64,000 nucleotides of DNA, taken from positions 124,001 to 188,000 of the forward strand of contig NZ_JANHOI010000002.1 of the NCBI RefSeq assembly GCF_026930205.1, in the 5' to 3' direction. A model generated the notes under the pieces. That model searched no databases and was not told the DNA's origin. It was given only the letters and a program-made list of their open reading frames with translations. Of the stretch, positions 14,148 through 23,062 are shown piece by piece (the first letter of the stretch is position 1; each line of letters begins with the position of its first letter). This DNA is from Bartonella sp. 220B. GTDB lineage: Bacteria; Pseudomonadota; Alphaproteobacteria; Rhizobiales; Rhizobiaceae. The translations under genes and the position numbers were made by a program.

Positions 14148-14951
14148 TTAAACTAACTTTGCTTGACGAACAACATCTATCATATCTTGGCAGCAATTAT
14201 TTTTACCTGCAATTAAAAGCCCATATTGATAAGGTTCAATTCCGTAAGATATAAAAGGTGCATCAAGCGATAGAAAACACCCTCCGCATTCCTGTAAAAT
14301 AAGATCAGCCGCTGCGATATCCCATGCGTGACAGTTCGGGCGAACCAACACAATATCGATCTCATTTTGGGCAACAAGGACAATACGATATGCAAGAGAG
14401 GGAATATGGCGATAAAAACTAATTTGATTGAGAAAATCATCCGGCAATTTTTGAGCGAACGATTTATCAAGTGAAACTTTATATTTGCGTTTAATCTGAG
14501 ATGCTAAAAGAGGAAGTTCTCTGCCATTTAATGTGGCTTTTCCACCAATAATAGCCGCATAAACATCCCCCTGAGCTGGACATTGCACAACACCCACGAT
14601 AGGACGTCCATTTTCAATAATAGCTATCGAAACACACCAATAGGTGTTGCCAGAAAGAAAACCACGCGTTCCATCAATAGGATCAACCACAAAATAGCGT
14701 TCATAGCTTTGTTGTTTCCGGTGATCTTTCGTTTCTTCTGAAATCCATCCATAATTTGGACGCGCTCCAAGAAGCTTTTCTTTCAAAAAGTGATCAACTG
14801 CAAAGTCTGCTTCACTAACTGGTGAATTTCCATCTTTTATCCAAACGTCTAATGTGCATCCAAAATACTTCATTGCTAAATCTCCTGCTTTTCGAGCAAC
14901 ATCAAGCAAAAGGTTTAAGTCAGAAGAATGATGCGTGTTATTTTCCTGCAA
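14148..14951 (-). CDS. Inositol monophosphatase-family phosphatase (CysQ-like)
   Basis: This is a Mg2+-dependent, Li+-sensitive phosphatase of 267 residues. The family metal site is visible: ISEETKD near residues 66-72 (a WxSEE-type motif), the first signature VDPIDGTRGF near 90-99, and the second signature CHAWDIAAADLILQECGG near 200-217. The most likely substrate is 3'-phosphoadenosine 5'-phosphate (CysQ activity), but inositol monophosphatase cannot be excluded. The start overlaps the end of the PmbA-like gene by 14 bp, so the two are co-translated. The third gene of the run is the DUF4170 protein. Confidence 0.85.
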   Translation of the reverse strand: MQENNTHHSSDLNLLLDVARKAGDLAMKYFGCTLDVWIKDGNSPVSEADFAVDHFLKEKLLGARPNYGWISEETKDHRKQQSYERYFVVDPIDGTRGFLSGNTYWCVSIAIIENGRPIVGVVQCPAQGDVYAAIIGGKATLNGRELPLLASQIKRKYKVSLDKSFAQKLPDDFLNQISFYRHIPSLAYRIVLVAQNEIDIVLVRPNCHAWDIAAADLILQECGGCFLSLDAPFISYGIEPYQYGLLIAGKNNCCQDMIDVVRQAKLV

Positions 14952-16269
14952 GTGTCATTCCTTCAATTAATAATGTTGGCGCTGCTATACTATAACGCCG
15001 ATCAATATCGTTGGCAGGTGTTAGATGTGCTAACATATGGAGCAGATCAGAACCTAGTGTTACTTCACTTACTGGATAGGCAATTTCGCCATTTTCAATC
15101 CAAAAACCAGAAGCACCACGACTGTACTGCCCGGTAACGAAATCAATGCCATGCCCGAATAATTCCGTAACATAGAATCCGGCACGCAAATTTTTTATCA
15201 TATCATCAGGTGATATTAAACCTGGTTCAATAGCAAAATTGGTACTTGCTGGTTGAACCAATGAAGCTGAACGCACACCATGACCATTGGTTTCAAGTCC
15301 CAATTCACGTGCTGAAGATGATGAAAGAAGCCAGTTTTTTAAAATACCATTTTCAATAATATTCAATGTTTGCCCCTCCACACCTTCTCCATCGAAAGGA
15401 CGAGAAGCATTTCCACGCAATCGCAAAGGTTGATCTGTCACATGAACATTTGATTTCATCACTGCTTTTCCCAAAAAATTTTGTAAAAGACTTGTTTTTC
15501 GAGCTACAGATGCTCCATTCACCATAGATGCGATATGTCCAGAAATTCCACGAGCTGTACGTGGATCAAAAATAATATCCACAACCTTTGTGGCAGTACG
15601 AACTGCTCCTAAACGTCGAACTGCTCTCGTTCCTGCATTTTTTCCTACAATTTCTGCTGCTTCCAAATCGGAAAAGTGCAGGGCGGTTGTATAATCATAA
15701 TCACGCTCCATTGCTGTTCCTTCACCAGCGACAGCACCACAAGAACGTGAAAAATAACTGGAATGATAGGACCCACAAAAACCATCACTCGTTACAAGAA
15801 CAAACCCACTACGGCCATAAGCTGTTGTGGCTCCACCAGAATTGCTCACTCCTTTAATATCAAGGGCTGCTGCCTCTGTTTTTAAAGCATCTTCTGTTAA
15901 AAAATGGCTATGTGGAACAAAATCATCAAAAAGATCAAGATCTTTAGGGTGTGTAACCAAATAGTCTTTATTTGCCAAGCCTTCAAATAAACTGTCAGGA
16001 GAAGCTTTCGCCATTGCAACAACGCGCTCTGCTAGTTTTTGCGGATAAGCCGTTAAATTAGCAGAAACACTTGCTACTTTTTTCCCAACAAAAACCCTTA
16101 ATGTAAAATCATTGCTCTCTGAAGCTTCTGTCGATTCGACTTTTCCGCAACGAACTGATACGCTAGTAGAATGAGCACGGACAATAACAGCATCAGCAGC
16201 ATCTGCTCCAGAACGTTTTGCTGCTTCAATCAACGAAGCAGCTTTATCAATCTGGTTTTTGTCAGTCAT
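14938..16269 (-). CDS. pmbA: TldD/PmbA family metallopeptidase component (PmbA-like)
   Basis: PmbA (TldE) forms a heterodimeric metalloprotease with TldD that processes small modified peptides in the cytoplasm. The protein resembles PmbA over its length, with VRCGKVESTEASE near residue 45, RTATKVVDIIFDPRTARGI and the NWLLSSSSARELGL and GASGFWIENGEIAYPV segments. The TldD-type HExxxH zinc motif is absent, as expected for the PmbA partner. I start it at ATG 16269 because AAGGGAGC lies immediately upstream. A longer frame reaching 16374 adds residues unlike the family. The protein is 443 residues. No tldD gene is in this window. Confidence 0.85.
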   Translation of the reverse strand: MTDKNQIDKAASLIEAAKRSGADAADAVIVRAHSTSVSVRCGKVESTEASESNDFTLRVFVGKKVASVSANLTAYPQKLAERVVAMAKASPDSLFEGLANKDYLVTHPKDLDLFDDFVPHSHFLTEDALKTEAAALDIKGVSNSGGATTAYGRSGFVLVTSDGFCGSYHSSYFSRSCGAVAGEGTAMERDYDYTTALHFSDLEAAEIVGKNAGTRAVRRLGAVRTATKVVDIIFDPRTARGISGHIASMVNGASVARKTSLLQNFLGKAVMKSNVHVTDQPLRLRGNASRPFDGEGVEGQTLNIIENGILKNWLLSSSSARELGLETNGHGVRSASLVQPASTNFAIEPGLISPDDMIKNLRAGFYVTELFGHGIDFVTGQYSRGASGFWIENGEIAYPVSEVTLGSDLLHMLAHLTPANDIDRRYSIAAPTLLIEGMTLAGK

Positions 16270-16701
16270 TATAGGCTCCCTTAAATATTTATTATTTATA
16301 TGGATAAACAATTTAGCGAATTCATATAAAATGTAATTTTGTATGCTCATCAATATAAATACTCGCATACACACGTTCTTTTAATAAATCGAACATTTTT
16401 TCATCTTCTTTCAAAAAAAATACAAGTAAAATCTCTTTGGCTTCAAGCTTTCTAATTCGCTCACTGTTATCAGTGAGTTAAATCCATATTTGCATAAAAC
16501 CAATGGAAAATTGTGTGATGACACTTCATTATTTTAAACTCCAAAACTCCAAAACTCCAAAACGGACTAGACTACATCTTCTATGGGCAATTGCTTAGTT
16601 AATACACTCACGGGGCAGAGACTCAAATTTTAATGTATGCTATAATTTCTGCGTCGTCTTTTTTTTTGACAGCTTCAATTTCCTTAAGTGAGTAAGCATA
16701 G
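16270..16701. other. Intergenic region upstream of the pmbA operon
   Basis: These 432 bp contain no credible ORF. They include three tandem copies of an 8-bp unit at 16539-16562 and a TCTTTTTTTTTGAC pyrimidine run near 16660. The promoter of the pmbA-cysQ-DUF4170 run probably lies at the left end. Confidence 0.4.
16539..16562. repeat. Three tandem copies of an 8-bp unit (CTCCAAAA)
   Basis: The unit CTCCAAAA occurs three times in a row without mismatch. It is in the intergenic space between the pmbA-like gene and the SRPBCC gene. Copy number of such short units can vary by slippage. Confidence 0.9.
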
Positions 16702-17151
16702 TTATGGAAACGATTTATTCCCAGTAAGAGCACGACGGTTCATTTCAATCATAGCATCGCGAAGGTGCAATTTAATTTTTGATCCAATAATGACTCCAAA
16801 TAAGGGAGCAAATAAACCCGACATAGTTACAGTATGACGAATTTTATTGTTTGAAGAACAAGATTTTGTTGAACGAATATACTCATGATCGAAAGTCATG
16901 TGTGTAAAAGGAAGTTTAGCATAATCAGAAAAGCAAACATTTTTTATAACTTTATCAAGTGTAAAAGTTACTTTCGGTCCTTTTTTAGGCTTCATTTTTC
17001 CTACAGCTCCTGCTTTAAAAGCACCAGAAAGTTCTATCCATTCAAGCTCATGATCCCAACAAGGCCATGTTGCCACATTTTCCCACATAGCCCAAATTTG
17101 CTCAGCACTCGCTTGTGTGTAAATCTCTTCACTATGTGTCCATTTAAACAT
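16702..17151 (-). CDS. SRPBCC-fold protein (polyketide cyclase/START-like)
   Basis: This 149-residue protein has the pattern of the SRPBCC superfamily, a hydrophobic-ligand-binding fold. It opens with FKWTHSEEIYTQASAEQIWAMWENVATWPCWDHE in pieces typical of the group (the AEQIW and VATWPCWD segments). It closes with a long amphipathic helix around LRDAMIEMNRRAL. No signal peptide is present. I chose ATG 17151 because AAGGGATT precedes it, whereas the longer frame from 17169 lacks a ribosome-binding site. The ligand is unknown. It is 240 bp downstream of the EVE gene on the same strand. Confidence 0.75.
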   Translation of the reverse strand: MFKWTHSEEIYTQASAEQIWAMWENVATWPCWDHELEWIELSGAFKAGAVGKMKPKKGPKVTFTLDKVIKNVCFSDYAKLPFTHMTFDHEYIRSTKSCSSNNKIRHTVTMSGLFAPLFGVIIGSKIKLHLRDAMIEMNRRALTGNKSFP

Positions 17152-17391
17152 GAGAATCCCTTTTTCCATAAAAAAATCTATTTAATGGATAGGTTATATA
17201 GGCTTCAGGCTAAAAGAAATTCTTAAATTTAAGATGCTCATTTCTATTGCAGACCATTTTCCAATAGCAGTGTCACAACAAATAATGCGTTGATACCAAT
17301 CTCTTTGGCTACGCTTTCATTAAAAGAAACCATTCAGTCTCCAAGAGACATCTTCTTTACATACTTGAAATAATAGAAATAAATTTCATCA

Positions 17392-17841
17392 TTAGCCATC
17401 ATGAACTCCCATTGCTTTGCGAATTCGGGACGCGTCATGAGTTGTAATTTCGAAAAAGCCTCGCCTTGCTAACATCCCCCAACGAGGATTGGATAGAAAT
17501 TCTAGACCTTGAACTTCTTTTAAAACAACAGGTTTTGCTTGTTTATTAAAAACAGCATCTTTTCGAAAAGGTATGAAATCAGGAGTTTGCTCTACTTGAT
17601 AAATTTGGTTATCTTTGAACACACACTGAAACTCTATAGTTTGAAGAATTTTTCCAGTGCCCATTTCACTCCGTGGACAATAAATGAAGACTTCATCTCC
17701 CTTAGATGTTTTTTGAAGTGGATCAGCCTTACCGTGACAGACTTGAAGGAAACCAAATTTGGCTGCAAGGCAAGCATGATCTCGAGAAATTACAGCTATC
17801 CAATGTTTTATTTTATATTCATTCTTCCACAAAATAAGCAA
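17392..17841 (-). CDS. EVE domain-containing protein (UPF0310 type)
   Basis: This 149-residue protein consists almost wholly of an EVE domain, a PUA-like fold thought to bind modified bases in nucleic acid. Diagnostic segments are HWIAVISRDHACLAAKFGF at the N-terminus, VCHGKADPLQKTSKGDEVFIYCPR, and NPRWGMLARRGFFEIT near the C-terminus. It is a stand-alone form with no nuclease partner. The start is uncertain by about 12 residues. EVE proteins are sometimes associated with defence or RNA-modification loci, but nothing here shows which applies. Confidence 0.8.
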   Translation of the reverse strand: MLILWKNEYKIKHWIAVISRDHACLAAKFGFLQVCHGKADPLQKTSKGDEVFIYCPRSEMGTGKILQTIEFQCVFKDNQIYQVEQTPDFIPFRKDAVFNKQAKPVVLKEVQGLEFLSNPRWGMLARRGFFEITTHDASRIRKAMGVHDG

Positions 17842-18377: not shown

Positions 18378-19109
18378 ATGAGCCTTCGTGTTGTCATTCT
18401 TTCTCCTGTGATGCCATTTTGGGATCACGGCGTTTTTTGTTCTTCATTTACAAAATTGTGTTTGGCAAAAGGATTCCAAATTACTTTACTTGATACACTA
18501 TCCCTTTTTCCTCCTCACTCTAGTTTTTGTAATAAATCTGCCATAGGCATTTTACCTTTTATGGTAGAGAAACTTGAAATATACTTTAAAGAGCCTTCAA
18601 TTCTTGTGGGTTTTTCTATGGCTGGAATGTTGGTACAGATATTGGCTGCGCGACTTTCCAATGTTCACGCTATGCTAGCCGTAAATGCACCAGGTTATCC
18701 AGATATGTTTTTGCAACAGCGTGTTGGATATATTCTCAATTTCTTGAAAAATAAAGATTTGTCAGGAGCTTTAGAAGCACTGAATACTTTTATGCATCCT
18801 CGTGGAGTTATGAAGAAAAGAGCCTTATTGGAGATTTCTAATACGCAAAAAAGCTTGGCTATTGAGCGTATGACAAAAGGATTTGAGTTCTTGTTGGGAA
18901 TGGATGCTAGAAATGAGATTATCAAGTACACCGGAAAGTTTTTAGCTTTAGTAGGTGAAAAATCGCAACTTGCAACCGTAGATAATCAAACACGAAGTCA
19001 TTGTGTGAATCATGAATATAAGATTGTTTCTGATGCGGGAACGCGTTTATGGGATGATAATCCTGTTATGACGAATAAAATTCTTTCTGAATGGATTGAT
19101 GGATTATGA
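18378..19109 (+). CDS. Alpha/beta-hydrolase fold protein coupled to the dehydrogenase fusion
   Basis: This 243-residue protein has the nucleophile elbow GFSMAG (G-x-S-x-x-G) near residue 78, after the strand SILVG, which is the core of an alpha/beta hydrolase. The N-terminus MSLRVVILSPVMPFWDHG provides a first strand and a possible oxyanion loop. A clear catalytic His near the C-terminus is not obvious; the candidate is the His in CVNHEYK or a nearby residue. Its stop codon overlaps the start of the downstream fusion gene by 4 bp (ATGA), so the two products are probably made together. The substrate is unknown. A thioesterase or esterase acting in the same small pathway is a reasonable guess. 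Confidence 0.65.
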   Translation: MSLRVVILSPVMPFWDHGVFCSSFTKLCLAKGFQITLLDTLSLFPPHSSFCNKSAIGILPFMVEKLEIYFKEPSILVGFSMAGMLVQILAARLSNVHAMLAVNAPGYPDMFLQQRVGYILNFLKNKDLSGALEALNTFMHPRGVMKKRALLEISNTQKSLAIERMTKGFEFLLGMDARNEIIKYTGKFLALVGEKSQLATVDNQTRSHCVNHEYKIVSDAGTRLWDDNPVMTNKILSEWIDGL

Positions 19110-21280
19110 AAAAGAAAATTCTTGTATTACCTGGGGATGGGGTGGGGCCAGAAGTTTGTGATACAGCACTGATGGTTTTAGAGAAATTTCAGTTGCCGAT
19201 TGAATTAGCTTATGGCGCTATTGGTTGGGAATGTTGGAAACAGGAAGGAGATCCTGTTCCTCAAGAAACTTGGCAAAAAATCAATGATTGTGATGCTGTT
19301 TTGCTTGGTGCTGTGACTAGTAAAGGGAAAGAAGCTGCTTTAAAGGAGCTTGCACCACATTTAAGGGAGAGGCAACTTCCCTATGTTTCGCCTGTTGTTC
19401 AGCTTCGCCAAAAGTTAGGCTTGTTTGCGAATATACGACCTGTAAGATATATTGTTGGTTCAAAAAGACCTTTTCATTTTTGTGTTATCAGGGAAAATAG
19501 TGAGGGTCTCTATGCGGGGCTTGATTTTCGCGGTGTCACTCCTGAAACAGCAACATGGTTAAAGCATCCCAATTTGACAAAATATGGTCTTGAAGAGGCC
19601 GCATGGACAGTGCGGTTGCAGACACGTTTTGGTTTAGAGCGGTTGTTTGAATATGCTTTTTCTTATGCACGGAGATATGGTTTTAAGCGGGTTACTTTTG
19701 CTGATAAGCCAAATGTCATGAGAGAAAGTGGTCAATTTGCTCAAGAAATTTTTGAGAAAGTGGCTCAAAATTATTCCGAAATTGAAGCAGATATACACAA
19801 TGTTGATGCGGTTGCTTTGTGGATTGTCACAAAACCAGAGCAGTTTGGTGTGATTGTTGCTGAAAATATGTTTGGTGATATTCTCTCTGATCTTGGTGCT
19901 GGAGTAATGGGTGGATTGGGATTGGCACCGAGTGCAAATGTGGGAAGCAAGATTGCGTATTTTGAGCCTGTTCATGGCAGTGCACCACGTATTGCTGGGC
20001 AGAATAAAGCTAATCCTTCTGCCATGCTTTACACTACAGCCTTACTCTTGGAGCATTTAGGTTTTCAGGATGCAGCACAACAATTGTCTGAGAGTGTTGA
20101 TCAGGTTATTCGCGCTGGGAAAACTGTAACTTATGATTTAGGAGGTTTAGCCACCACGCGTCAAATGGCTGAAGCTGTTCTTCATTCTCTTGTAAATCCT
20201 GTCTCTGTTTGTCGAGCGGCGATTATTACGGTTGGTGATGAGCTCCTTTCAGGACAATATCTGAATACGAATTTGCAGGATTTGAGTCAAAGCTTGAACA
20301 AGAGAAATATTCAAGTGACACGTCATTTTGTTTGCGCCGATCAATTACAGCAAATCAGTGAGACAGTGGTTGCGTGTCTTGGACAAGAAGATCTCATCAT
20401 TATCAGTGGAGGATTAGGACCAACATCTGACGATAAAACGCGTGATGCGATTGCTCAAGCTGTGCAAAAGCCTTTGGTCCATCATGAAGCGGTTTGGCAA
20501 ACGATAAAAGGTCAATTGCAACGGTTAGGGATTGCACCTGATAGCAATAATGCCCGTCAGGCATTGTTTCTTGAGACGGCACAAGTCCTTGATAACCCTA
20601 CGGGGACAGCACCTGGTTTTTATCTCTCCTGTAGTGGAAGTTCTCTTGTTGTTTTGCCTGGTCCTCCCACCCAGGCTCTTTCACTTTTAGAACATTATTT
20701 AGAATACGGTGAAAAGAAGTATTCTGCTGTATCGCGTGCTCAATATGCGTGGACTTTGATTGGAATTGATGAAAGTACCATTGCGCATTGGGTTGATAGT
20801 CATTTTGCTAATGAACCGTTTGAGCGGCATTTTTTATGGAAAAGTCCTTATGTCCTTGTGCAACTGATTGGTCAGTCATCAACACCCTTGGCTCAACATT
20901 TAATCGAAGAATTTGAAGATCATTTTCGTTCATACTTGGTTGGTGCAGAAATTACCACTGCTTGCCAACAATTAGCAAAATATGCAGAAGTTCACTGGTC
21001 AGCAAGTAATCCGATGCTTTTAAAATATTTTCAACAAACGGAAAAAAATGAGAAAACTCTTCCACAGCTTGAGGTTAAGGTTAGCTTATCGCCTTCTTTA
21101 GAAGTATTAGAAAACCAAAAAGAAAGCCTTGGACATGCGACTATGACTGTACGAATTGACGGGTTTGGTGATGATCATATCACGTTTCCTTATACGCGAC
21201 CGCTTTTAGGCGTAGTCTTACAGGAATATGCAGCTTGGTCGGTTTTAAAAAGATATTTGAAAGCTGAAGATCGTAGATGA
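19106..21280 (+). CDS. Fusion of an isocitrate/isopropylmalate dehydrogenase-like enzyme with a CinA-type domain
   Basis: This 724-residue protein joins two normally separate families. Residues 1-360 are a decarboxylating beta-hydroxyacid dehydrogenase: LPGDGVGPEV near 7, RENSEGLYAG near 129-138 with the catalytic Tyr, FADKPNVM near 198 with the catalytic Lys, and NMFGDILSDLGAG near 253 with metal-binding aspartates. The RENSEGLYAG form is closer to isocitrate/homoisocitrate than to isopropylmalate enzymes. From about 369 a MoCF/CinA N-terminal domain follows (AIITVGDELLSG, ISGGLGPTSDDKTRDAI near 432, NPTGTAPGF near 496, LPGPPTQ near 517). A CinA-like middle segment (GIDESTIA near 552) and about 150 unassigned residues complete it. 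CinA proteins of COG1058 hydrolyse ADP-ribose. The frame is continuous, with no sign of a read-through error. Confidence 0.85.
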   Translation: MKKKILVLPGDGVGPEVCDTALMVLEKFQLPIELAYGAIGWECWKQEGDPVPQETWQKINDCDAVLLGAVTSKGKEAALKELAPHLRERQLPYVSPVVQLRQKLGLFANIRPVRYIVGSKRPFHFCVIRENSEGLYAGLDFRGVTPETATWLKHPNLTKYGLEEAAWTVRLQTRFGLERLFEYAFSYARRYGFKRVTFADKPNVMRESGQFAQEIFEKVAQNYSEIEADIHNVDAVALWIVTKPEQFGVIVAENMFGDILSDLGAGVMGGLGLAPSANVGSKIAYFEPVHGSAPRIAGQNKANPSAMLYTTALLLEHLGFQDAAQQLSESVDQVIRAGKTVTYDLGGLATTRQMAEAVLHSLVNPVSVCRAAIITVGDELLSGQYLNTNLQDLSQSLNKRNIQVTRHFVCADQLQQISETVVACLGQEDLIIISGGLGPTSDDKTRDAIAQAVQKPLVHHEAVWQTIKGQLQRLGIAPDSNNARQALFLETAQVLDNPTGTAPGFYLSCSGSSLVVLPGPPTQALSLLEHYLEYGEKKYSAVSRAQYAWTLIGIDESTIAHWVDSHFANEPFERHFLWKSPYVLVQLIGQSSTPLAQHLIEEFEDHFRSYLVGAEITTACQQLAKYAEVHWSASNPMLLKYFQQTEKNEKTLPQLEVKVSLSPSLEVLENQKESLGHATMTVRIDGFGDDHITFPYTRPLLGVVLQEYAAWSVLKRYLKAEDRR

Positions 21281-22108
21281 TATTCTGGAGGGTAGTAAAA
21301 ACACTGACTCAATCATTGCTCTTCCTCAGGTTAGCAGTGTTGTTTTGATGCTTTAGATTGGTTGTATTTGCTAGCAGATTTCTTTGATATGAAACAATAT
21401 TAAAGTGGTAATAAATAAATAGAAAATATTTTATTCTCAACAGTTTTTCAGGACAATACGAGTATTGTTATTCAAGTTTTGTTAGGGATATTCTTGAGAA
21501 TAGAAATTCTGTATTATTTTTTTACAACAAATATTTATACATTTTAAGCTAAAAATCACGTGCCTATATGCGTATGGGAAGAATTATTATTGCATGATAA
21601 AATTGCAATGACTCATGGCGTTTATTTTTTTTAGCTCAGGGGAAGAACTTGGCATGTGTTGATTAAGAGATGAAGGATATTTTTTCAAGAGGATAGCCAA
21701 AGCATCGTTCATTTTTCTGACAATAAATTGCCATAAAATAGCAGTATTTTCCAGGACTGTTATGCTCTCACATAATGGTTAGGTATTATCTCTCATGTGT
21801 ACTGATCTCTCAGGATTATTCAAGTGCGTAAAACAGAATTGTTTTGTATGCAAGATACAAAGGAATATTCTTTCAGCGGTTTTGCTATGTTCTTATTGGT
21901 TTCTTGATGGGCAATTTTCAGTCATGTTTGAAAATGCATCATTCGTTGTTGAGTAAGAGCTTTTTTGCTGAGTTAATTTTTAAAGCATCATTCTTAGTAT
22001 TTGAGTGTTTGAATATAAAAAATTTTCAAAAATTGTTCCTCCCTCATTTCGTAGACTGTCTATTATAATGTGCGGTGGTACTTGTGAATGAAAAAAGGAA
22101 AGATTTCC
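21281..22108. other. Intergenic region downstream of the fusion gene
   Basis: These 828 bp contain a few short frames with no family features. One, at 21844-22068, has a hydrophobic, Phe-rich translation and no ribosome-binding site, and I do not call it. No clear terminator follows the fusion gene. The right end carries AAGGAAAG at 22094-22101, the likely ribosome-binding site of the amidase gene. Confidence 0.4.
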
Positions 22109-23062
22109 ATGTATCAGATTGACTACAACAGTTATCGTTCTATTAGGAGCTTTAATCGTCGTGTTCGTTTTCTTGTAATGCATTATACTTCACTGAATTT
22201 TAAAGAGTCAGTTATGGCTCTTACAGGAGAAAAGGTTAGTGCACACTATCTTGTTCCTGATCCAACAGAGCAGACATATCTTGAGGCCGGTTTTAAGGAT
22301 ATGCGTATCTTTAATCTTGTTGATGAAAGTGAGCGCGCATGGCATGCGGGTGTCAGTTCATGGGCTGGGCATAGTAATTTAAATGATACATCTATTGGAA
22401 TTGAAATAGTTAATTTAGCAACGGGCTATTCTGTTTCGTCAGACAAGACGTATGTTGAAACATCTTTAAAGGATATGCGCGTTTTAAATCCAGTTCATAA
22501 AGATGCAAATGAATTACAGGTTGGCTCATGGATTGAAAAAAGGCATGTGAGCAGTACAGTTTTGCCCTTTGAGAATAATCATTTTTTTACCTGTAAAAAT
22601 GAGGGATTGATATTTCCTCCTTATAATCCAACGCAAATTGATGCAGTTAAGGAGCTTGCGTTGAATATTCTTCAACGATATCCAGATATTACGCCAACCG
22701 ATGTTGTTGGACACAGTGATATTGCCATTGGAAGAAAAATTGATCCAGGGGCTGCTTTCCCGTGGAAAGAACTTTATATGGCAGGGATAGGGGCATGGTA
22801 TGATGATGAACGAAAGCATCATTATCAGGAGCAGTTTTGTAAGAGTTTTCCATCCAAAGAAGATGTTTTGGCTCAGTTGAAATGTTATGGGTATGACATT
22901 TCTATTGCATGTAGCGAAATTGGATATAAAAATTTGATTCGAGCTTTTCAGCTTCATTTTCGTCAAGAAAATTATGATGGGATTCTGGATGTTGAAACCG
23001 CAGCGATTCTCTATGCTTTGGTAGATAAGTATTTTCCATCAGATTTATCCAGTTTATCTTAA
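22109..23062 (+). CDS. amiD: N-acetylmuramoyl-L-alanine amidase, AmiD-like, with an internal insertion
   Basis: This zinc amidase removes peptides from (anhydro)muramic acid. It aligns well with E. coli AmiD: FLVMHYTSLNF with the first zinc His, VSAHYLVPDP, AWHAGVSSW, NDTSIGIEI, and GHSDIAIGRKIDPGAAFPW with the other ligands. A C-terminal peptidoglycan-binding-type helical region follows (IRAFQLHFRQENYDG). Between SIGIEIVN and FPPYNPTQ there are about 60 extra residues that resemble an earlier segment of the same protein (see the repeat entry). AAGGAAAG at 22094-22101 supports ATG 22109 rather than ATG 22088. Unlike E. coli AmiD, no lipoprotein signal is visible, so a cytoplasmic location or non-classical export is possible. 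Confidence 0.85.
   Translation: MYQIDYNSYRSIRSFNRRVRFLVMHYTSLNFKESVMALTGEKVSAHYLVPDPTEQTYLEAGFKDMRIFNLVDESERAWHAGVSSWAGHSNLNDTSIGIEIVNLATGYSVSSDKTYVETSLKDMRVLNPVHKDANELQVGSWIEKRHVSSTVLPFENNHFFTCKNEGLIFPPYNPTQIDAVKELALNILQRYPDITPTDVVGHSDIAIGRKIDPGAAFPWKELYMAGIGAWYDDERKHHYQEQFCKSFPSKEDVLAQLKCYGYDISIACSEIGYKNLIRAFQLHFRQENYDGILDVETAAILYALVDKYFPSDLSSLS
22272..22533 (+). repeat. Partial direct duplication inside the amidase gene
   Basis: The segment at about 22272-22365 and the segment at about 22446-22533 are similar at both DNA and protein level. The proteins read TYLEAGFKDMRIFNLV then SSW, against TYVETSLKDMRVLNPV then GSW. The DNA shares AAGGATATGCG and flanking bases. The first copy matches the normal AmiD sequence; the second falls in the insertion and has lost the AWHAG histidine. 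Confidence 0.7.

Follow-up and report, generated by a model that had tools for sequence, protein, structure and literature searches.

A dehydrogenase-CinA fusion gene of Bartonella: conservation of one active site and repeated change of the other among intact copies

The fusion gene and its locus

Here, we studied a 64,000-nucleotide stretch of the Bartonella sp. 220B genome (assembly GCF_026930205.1, contig NZ_JANHOI010000002.1, positions 124,001 to 188,000; "the window," whose own numbering is used throughout), and in it a gene that joins an isocitrate/isopropylmalate-type beta-decarboxylating dehydrogenase (DH) to a CinA-type protein in one polypeptide. Among intact Bartonella copies of this fusion, the catalytic residues of the CinA half are conserved, whereas those of the DH half are changed in most. 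The gene, its parts, and the gene to which it is coupled are the following.

18378..19109, + strand: alpha/beta-hydrolase-fold gene, 243 amino acids; Ser80 present, usual catalytic His motif replaced
19106..19109, + strand: ATGA stop/start overlap of the hydrolase-fold gene and the fusion gene, 4 bp
19106..21280, + strand: DH-CinA fusion gene, 724 amino acids, stop included (open reading frame, Pfam and NCBIfam matches)
19106..20191, + strand: DH domain, residues 1-362
20213..20707, + strand: COG1058/MoCF_biosynth domain, residues 370-534
20708..20941, + strand: CinA KH-type domain, residues 535-612, with GIDES motif (E556)
20942..21277, + strand: C-terminal domain, residues 613-724, unclassified family

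The frame opens with ATG and runs without an internal stop. Pfam finds Iso_dh at residues 4-358 (2e-85) and MoCF_biosynth at residues 372-532 (4e-33), both complete, so that the uninterrupted fusion of the original prediction stands, as does its coupling to the hydrolase-fold gene through the 4-bp overlap (19106-19109). The CinA_nterm model (TIGR00200) spans residues 370-606, and therefore the CinA KH-type domain is part of the fusion; Pfam CinA_KH gives a weak match in 2 of 33 fusion-family members. The prediction had left about 150 C-terminal residues as being of unknown type, but the tail after COG1058 measures about 190 residues, of which approximately 535-612 are the KH domain and only 613-724 are unclassified. 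The full-length model has a mean predicted local distance difference test (pLDDT) score of 87.8, with the last 110 residues mostly near 89 and a weaker stretch at 641-650, and the closest solved structures are isocitrate dehydrogenase 6lky for the DH half and Thermus CinA 4cta/4ct8 for the second half. Profile, fold, and the catalytic Arg/Tyr/Lys/Asp set all place the DH half in the Iso_dh family; the NCBIfam cut-offs of the LeuB, Icd, AksF, and tartrate dehydrogenase equivalogs were not reached (25 of 29 matched families; best score 309 bits vs. 540).

The fusion is real and no sequencing accident, because it is intact in 31 of 71 Bartonella genomes, has a median ratio of nonsynonymous to synonymous substitution rates (dN/dS) of 0.17, and recurs in other phyla. 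In none of 59 related loci outside Bartonella are the two parts encoded as separate genes with a stop and a start at the junction. In one Bartonella genome (G450) the frame is interrupted close to residue 347 and at an earlier point as well, apparently through secondary damage.

The coupled gene had been described as an alpha/beta hydrolase, a label that holds for the fold (pLDDT 94.3; 875 Foldseek matches at E <= 0.001; TMq 0.76 to RutD 3v48) but not for the Ser-His catalytic pair. The nucleophile position is Ser80 in the window (18615-18617) and Ala in 37 of 49 non-Bartonella members. At the catalytic His, where GAGH is usual, the window has GTR, and the aligned non-Bartonella rows have GMR or SMR. 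With the His motif missing and the nucleophile replaced by Ala in most non-Bartonella members, we would not call the protein a hydrolase. The family-invariant residues D39, R164, S196, and R223 are kept in all 15 Bartonella copies, and dN/dS is 0.24. Residue 80 is Ser in 14 of the 15; the copy in G465, which comes from a nearly complete cluster, has Ala like most of the family.

For the C-terminal domain, a degenerate PncC deamidase was considered, but profile comparison gave no support above controls (hhalign Prob 1.3% at best, with 2 unrelated families of 13 controls, those of DH and of the exporter described below, scoring higher). By eye, the order of elements and the "G-T ... R-G ... A-A-W" end resemble those of PncC. 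PF02464 (PncC) was not found in the window protein and matched one of 33 members at E 0.16, and when 27 of the 33 members were searched as a profile against the PDB, the one match, to an O-methyltransferase (E 0.22), was at chance level. Structural searches with the whole fusion model, in which the C-terminal domain was not searched as a separate model, had DH-type chains in all of the top 50 rows listed of each.

Conservation of the two active sites

The window protein carries the COG1058 signatures GDELLSG and GGLGPTSDD, which correspond to the described motifs GXEX3G and GGL/IGPX3D (PMC3680494), and the catalytic acids E379, D412, and D443. All three acids occur in 13 of 13 aligned Bartonella rows (the window and 12 others), and among 27 non-Bartonella fusions E379 is Glu in 25, D412 is Asp in 25, and D443 is Asp in 26. 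Mutation of the matching acids in the Agrobacterium COG1058 protein is reported to have left no detectable activity (PMC3680494). The Glu of the KH motif GIDES (553-557) is present in all 25 alignable non-Bartonella rows, the other 2 of 27 being gapped. Compared with the window at 12 chosen CinA positions, the 28 intact Bartonella fusions analysed differ in 0 of 336 alignment cells.

Two ligand-binding residues are different in Bartonella. In Thermus CinA, Asp20 and Glu156 contact the adenine and ribose of ADP-ribose, and the ribose-contact Glu is described as absolutely conserved (PMC4246079). The position of Asp20 is Asn387 in the window; all 13 Bartonella rows and 6 of the 27 others have Asn. 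That of Glu156 is Gln523; Gln is found in all 13 Bartonella rows and in 3 of the 27 others, the rest of which have Glu (22/27) or Ala (2/27). Since the acids are kept while Asn and Gln stand in for the ligand Asp and Glu, the natural inference is that the CinA half would be a nucleotide pyrophosphatase with altered specificity, as the Asp-to-Asn and Glu-to-Gln changes predict. No PF00994 domain other than that of the fusion was found in the window genome. Such a match is absent in 14 of 71 Bartonella genomes, and the fusion is thus useful rather than essential in the genus.

In the DH half, the nine positions S95, R101, R111, R129, Y136, K201, D234, D258, and D262, with catalytic roles known from isocitrate dehydrogenases, are all present in the window copy, and each is kept in 59 of 59 non-Bartonella DHs (the alignment includes 17 Bartonella rows, four of them broken). 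The window copy thus bears out the claim of complete catalytic sets and looks, from its residues, competent in both halves. The rest of the genus is different. Across the 28 intact fusions (a set that leaves out the three further intact copies, of G465, G457, and G458), 58 of 252 cells at these nine positions are changed and 19 copies are affected; on the tree this corresponds to at least five changes of state, and to 37 changes when summed over the nine sites. The intact copy of G465, outside this set, keeps its DH residues.

The same asymmetry appears at positions invariant in 25 non-Bartonella fusions, where Bartonella is changed in 344 of 2772 DH cells, 2 of 812 CinA cells (29 positions), and 1 of 56 cells of the C-terminal domain. 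The family-invariant DH changes are concentrated in the 19 copies with altered sites (328 of 1881 cells) vs. the 9 with intact sites (16 of 891). The window copy has a single one in DH, T132S, at a position changed in 26 of 28 copies, and none in CinA. Median dN/dS over the 28 fusions is 0.171 for the whole gene, 0.096 for COG1058, 0.161 for KH, 0.184 for DH, and 0.24 for the C-terminal domain. Intact Bartonella copies therefore amount to a natural dissection of a fusion enzyme, in which one active site was lost several times over while the other was kept, and this makes the function of the CinA half directly testable.

The gene cluster outside Bartonella

To place the fusion among its relatives we kept the best 80 of 580, which gave 79 loci, 20 of them in Bartonella and 59 elsewhere; this is a selection and not a census. 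Of the 59 non-Bartonella loci, 27 have the DH joined to a CinA-type domain and 12 have it joined to RraA, and in the remaining 20 it stands alone. Hosts of the CinA-fused form are Gammaproteobacteria, actinobacteria, a single Bacteroidota metagenome-assembled genome (MAG), and a single Neisseriaceae MAG. The DH gene has RraA nearby in 59 of 59 loci, DUF6282 in 56, an HMGL-type aldolase in 55, and the hydrolase-fold gene in 54 (family names were set for one Photorhabdus and one Pseudomonas locus and transferred to the others by purpose-built profiles). All four loci without HMGL have the gap at a contig end, and the same is true of further misses in L060 and L089. In L064 and L082 the hydrolase-fold gene is absent and the COG1058 domain truncated, L059 has no hydrolase-fold gene between HMGL and DH, and L076 and L078 are without DUF6282. 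The suggestion that the gene served a small unrecognized pathway is thus upheld as regards its origin, as the fusion sits in a recurring cluster.

Accessory genes differ with the form of the DH. A Bcr/CflA-type exporter (>400 bits) accompanies 19 of 27 CinA-fused DHs vs. 0 of 32 others, and the 20 DH-alone loci carry instead luciferase-like (12), nitronate-monooxygenase-like (13), small monooxygenase-like (13), and RutF-like (9) genes. A cluster of five core enzymes with interchangeable accessory genes is found across unrelated bacteria, among them Streptomyces, Pseudomonas, Legionella, Photorhabdus, and Bartonella. No description of this gene set, and nothing for DUF6282 alone, was found among the papers listed from the open-licence PubMed Central literature, and it is apparently a widespread, undescribed small-molecule gene cluster.

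Several loci show further arrangements. DH-RraA fusions occur in Legionella, Streptomyces, and Actinopolyspora (12/59, including L068, L069, L071, L072, and L080) and an RraA-DUF6282 fusion in Pseudosulfitobacter (L066), and these support a functional link among the cluster enzymes. In Legionella adelaidensis a RimK-like ATP-grasp gene lies directly upstream of HMGL (L102:9334-10416), and a gene of similar size and place is found in 12 Legionella loci (one sequence cluster), which suggests that the core product gets ligated to something. ParA-like and DnaB-like genes follow closely after the Photorhabdus cluster (L067:11620-13882); such a pair stands at the start of some integrative elements, and the arrangement is consistent with mobility. 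A plasmid search returned one record, from Legionella adelaidensis, with the cluster but without CinA; with HMGL as query it returned none, and E. coli genomes had no match to the Photorhabdus fusion DNA.

Among the 80 relatives, the nearest named one of the window fusion is that of B. vinsonii subsp. arupensis (95% identity). In the DH tree (a quick tree from which four broken Bartonella rows were dropped, with a root for drawing only), Bartonella falls within a group of Lonsdalea, Citrobacter, Photorhabdus, and Endozoicomonas (Shimodaira-Hasegawa-like approximate likelihood ratio test [SH-aLRT] 96), and residues 533-724 searched against 385 genomes of the host's class matched the window genome and gave one weak match only. 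This nesting, together with the near-absence from the genomes searched, suggests that Bartonella acquired the gene horizontally from Gammaproteobacteria. There are CinA-fused DHs to either side of the midpoint root, in three of four main groups and not in the 13-row Pseudomonas-type group, and thus the fusion may be old and its losses later.

Retention and scattering in Bartonella

We scanned 71 Bartonella genomes, reading match tables and counting as intact any gene with about 95% coverage or more and no internal stop. The fusion is intact in 31, the hydrolase-fold gene in 37, and the exporter in 45; fusion and hydrolase-fold gene are intact together in 28, the fusion only in 3, the hydrolase-fold gene only in 9, and neither in 31. 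Each of the 31 genomes with an intact fusion has an intact exporter, and 28 of them an intact hydrolase-fold gene. Matches to RraA (5/71), DUF6282 (5/71), and HMGL (15/71) are few, many of them fragments or distant. The exporter of the window genome lies on another contig (G000:C15:762-1958, L152) as an intact 397-codon frame, and that of B. vinsonii arupensis (L044) about 300 bp upstream of the hydrolase-fold gene. In G000, G019, and G477 the exporter match contains one stop, which in G000 precedes the start codon.

In 10 of the 28 genomes with both genes, these do not lie together: 7 genomes have them on different contigs, and 3 have them on a single contig but far apart. All four two-locus genomes that we examined (G016, G031, G457, and G472) show complementary loss. 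One locus has an intact exporter and hydrolase-fold gene adjoining a decayed DH remnant. The second has the intact fusion, accompanied in G031 and G472 by a decayed hydrolase-fold gene and an HMGL remnant, in G457 by an HMGL remnant with no hydrolase-fold match, and in G016 by neither remnant, where a second exporter copy is intact. Each of these genomes has thus kept at least one open copy of the fusion and of the hydrolase-fold gene. A second DH, decayed to a remnant of its N-terminal ~150 residues, lies next to an intact hydrolase-fold gene and exporter in several Bartonella genomes (loci L144, L146, L148, and L150).

Of the 71 genomes, 15 have the fusion in broken form or as fragments. In 8 broken copies chosen from these for inspection the DH half is always disrupted, and the CinA half is undisrupted in 5 (G450, G466, G477, G451, and G452), ambiguous in G463, and disrupted in G027 and G019. 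In addition, the KH and C-terminal part is present once more in G477, downstream of the cluster (L157:7332-7769; also in L037), and G461, from which the whole gene is absent, has two copies of a 57-residue piece like fusion residues 642-698 (G461:C1:1177007-1177177 and 1292625-1292795).

As for the neighbours of the gene pair in the window, an inositol-monophosphatase family protein, PmbA/TldD, and an EVE-domain protein are encoded at 14148-17841 (all - strand) and an N-acetylmuramoyl-L-alanine amidase at 22088-23062 (+ strand). A defence system was considered and rejected, with no PADLOC match among 5 proteins tested, and counts of promoters and terminators were similar to those in shuffled sequence.

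Interpretation and alternatives

The reading we prefer, to which we give an even chance, is that the window gene is the surviving signature enzyme of an acquired cluster, and that in Bartonella the CinA half is under selection while the DH half is becoming a scaffold. Judging from the families involved, the HMGL-type aldolase of the parent clusters would build a hydroxy acid, the DH half would decarboxylate it oxidatively, and RraA, DUF6282, and the hydrolase-fold protein may process the product further. The CinA half, to go by its conserved acids, would be a pyrophosphatase that depends on a metal and cleaves a nucleotide resembling ADP-ribose or NAD; it is often paired with the Bcr/CflA exporter. 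Bartonella has mostly lost the aldolases and DUF6282 and has kept the exporter, the hydrolase-fold gene, and the fusion, even when dispersed; purifying selection was measured there for the last two. Within the fusion, the CinA site is preserved, and the DH domain, its site changed in most intact copies, would survive as a scaffold. The low dN/dS of DH in groups with changed sites indicates that the domain is constrained, probably as a dimer scaffold, and to judge by the residues lost, these copies are probably catalytically dead.

Several observations weigh against this interpretation. The window copy itself is free of DH decay; DH dN/dS is still 0.20-0.28 in the site-changed groups, and the domain may keep a non-catalytic or altered activity. 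With two Thermus ligand residues changed in Bartonella, the substrate of the CinA half may be something other than ADP-ribose; no enzyme activity is known to us for any member, and the substrate assigned to every step is putative. The hydrolase-fold gene occurs without an intact fusion in 9 genomes and the reverse in 3. Seven other broken genomes (G004, G022, G025, G445, G454, G455, and G461) have apparent damage in both halves or fragments only, so whole-gene decay happens too, and the one-sided pattern is strongest among intact copies. Further, the Bartonella genomes are related, and the counts are not independent events.

It is possible, although we would not expect it, that the CinA half acts in tailoring, by cleaving a biosynthetic intermediate linked to a nucleotide, and that the Bartonella trio makes and exports a simplified product from a host-derived precursor. 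The pairing of CinA with the exporter (19/27 vs. 0/32), the co-retention of exporter, hydrolase-fold gene, and fusion, and the complementary loss at two loci would all fit; however, core clusters run without CinA in Legionella and Pseudomonas, and the DH step would be dispensable in most intact Bartonella copies. A more doubtful idea sees in the trio the means by which an antimetabolite cluster protects its own host; the product of such a cluster would form NAD(P)-type adducts that a CinA fused to the DH could destroy where they arise, the DH being left as a dead scaffold after loss of biosynthesis. This is suggested by analogy with the M. tuberculosis CinA pyrophosphatase domain and its reported action on NAD-drug adducts (PMC9033802).

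Housekeeping substitution, in which the fusion supplies the ordinary ADP-ribose pyrophosphatase (a stand-alone COG1058) that these Bartonella lack, accords with its being the sole PF00994 domain in the window genome and with the kept COG1058 catalytic residues, yet we hold it to be improbable: the 14 of 71 genomes without a PF00994 match make it dispensable in the genus, and it explains neither the co-retention with the hydrolase-fold gene and exporter nor the changed residues N387 and Q523. Quite unlikely as well is the partnership first proposed, in which DH and CinA together channel or repair damaged nicotinamide cofactors. The presence of CinA-fused DHs on both sides of the midpoint root speaks for it, as do the intact DH site in 59 of 59 non-Bartonella DHs, each COG1058 acid in 25 or 26 of 27 non-Bartonella fusions, and both sites in the window copy. 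Against it as a general explanation, 19 of 28 intact Bartonella copies have lost at least one DH catalytic residue with the CinA site unchanged, and the search for other fusions and their neighbours, which recovered the same fusion within the shared cluster in 27 of 59 non-Bartonella loci, found the same DH type without CinA in the other 32, 12 of them RraA-fused. Cofactor channelling between the halves across the genus is not supported. Finally, a neutral relic whose decay is still to come, which the broken or fragmentary gene in 15 of 71 genomes and its absence from others might suggest, is scarcely credible given dN/dS of 0.17 overall and 0.096 in COG1058, changes in only 2 of 812 invariant CinA cells, and a complementary two-locus loss that leaves an intact copy of each gene.

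Comparison with known systems

Compared with isocitrate, homoisocitrate, and isopropylmalate dehydrogenases, the DH half reads SPVVQLR where 6lky has SVNVTLR, and has Arg295 where 6lky carries an Asp typical of NAD enzymes. The M. tuberculosis CinA, whose pyrophosphatase domain is reported to act on NAD-drug adducts, is of the same pyrophosphatase family, but its report, as far as it was available, mentions no DH and no gene cluster, and it is a precedent for the substrate only (PMC9033802). Fusions of COG1058 to PncC and to FAD synthase have been reported in a paper whose main text does not contain the word "dehydrogenase" (PMC3680494). The stand-alone alphaproteobacterial COG1058 and the animal and plant COG1058-FAD synthase described there have the same GXEX3G and GGL/IGPX3D motifs as the fusion. 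With the bifunctional CinA of Thermus thermophilus (COG1058-KH-PncC; PDB 4CT8, PMC4246079) the fusion shares the COG1058 domain, the acids E379/D412/D443, and the KH Glu; it differs in adding an N-terminal DH, in having no recognizable PncC deamidase domain, and, in Bartonella, in carrying Asn for the adenine-contact Asp and Gln for the ribose-contact Glu.

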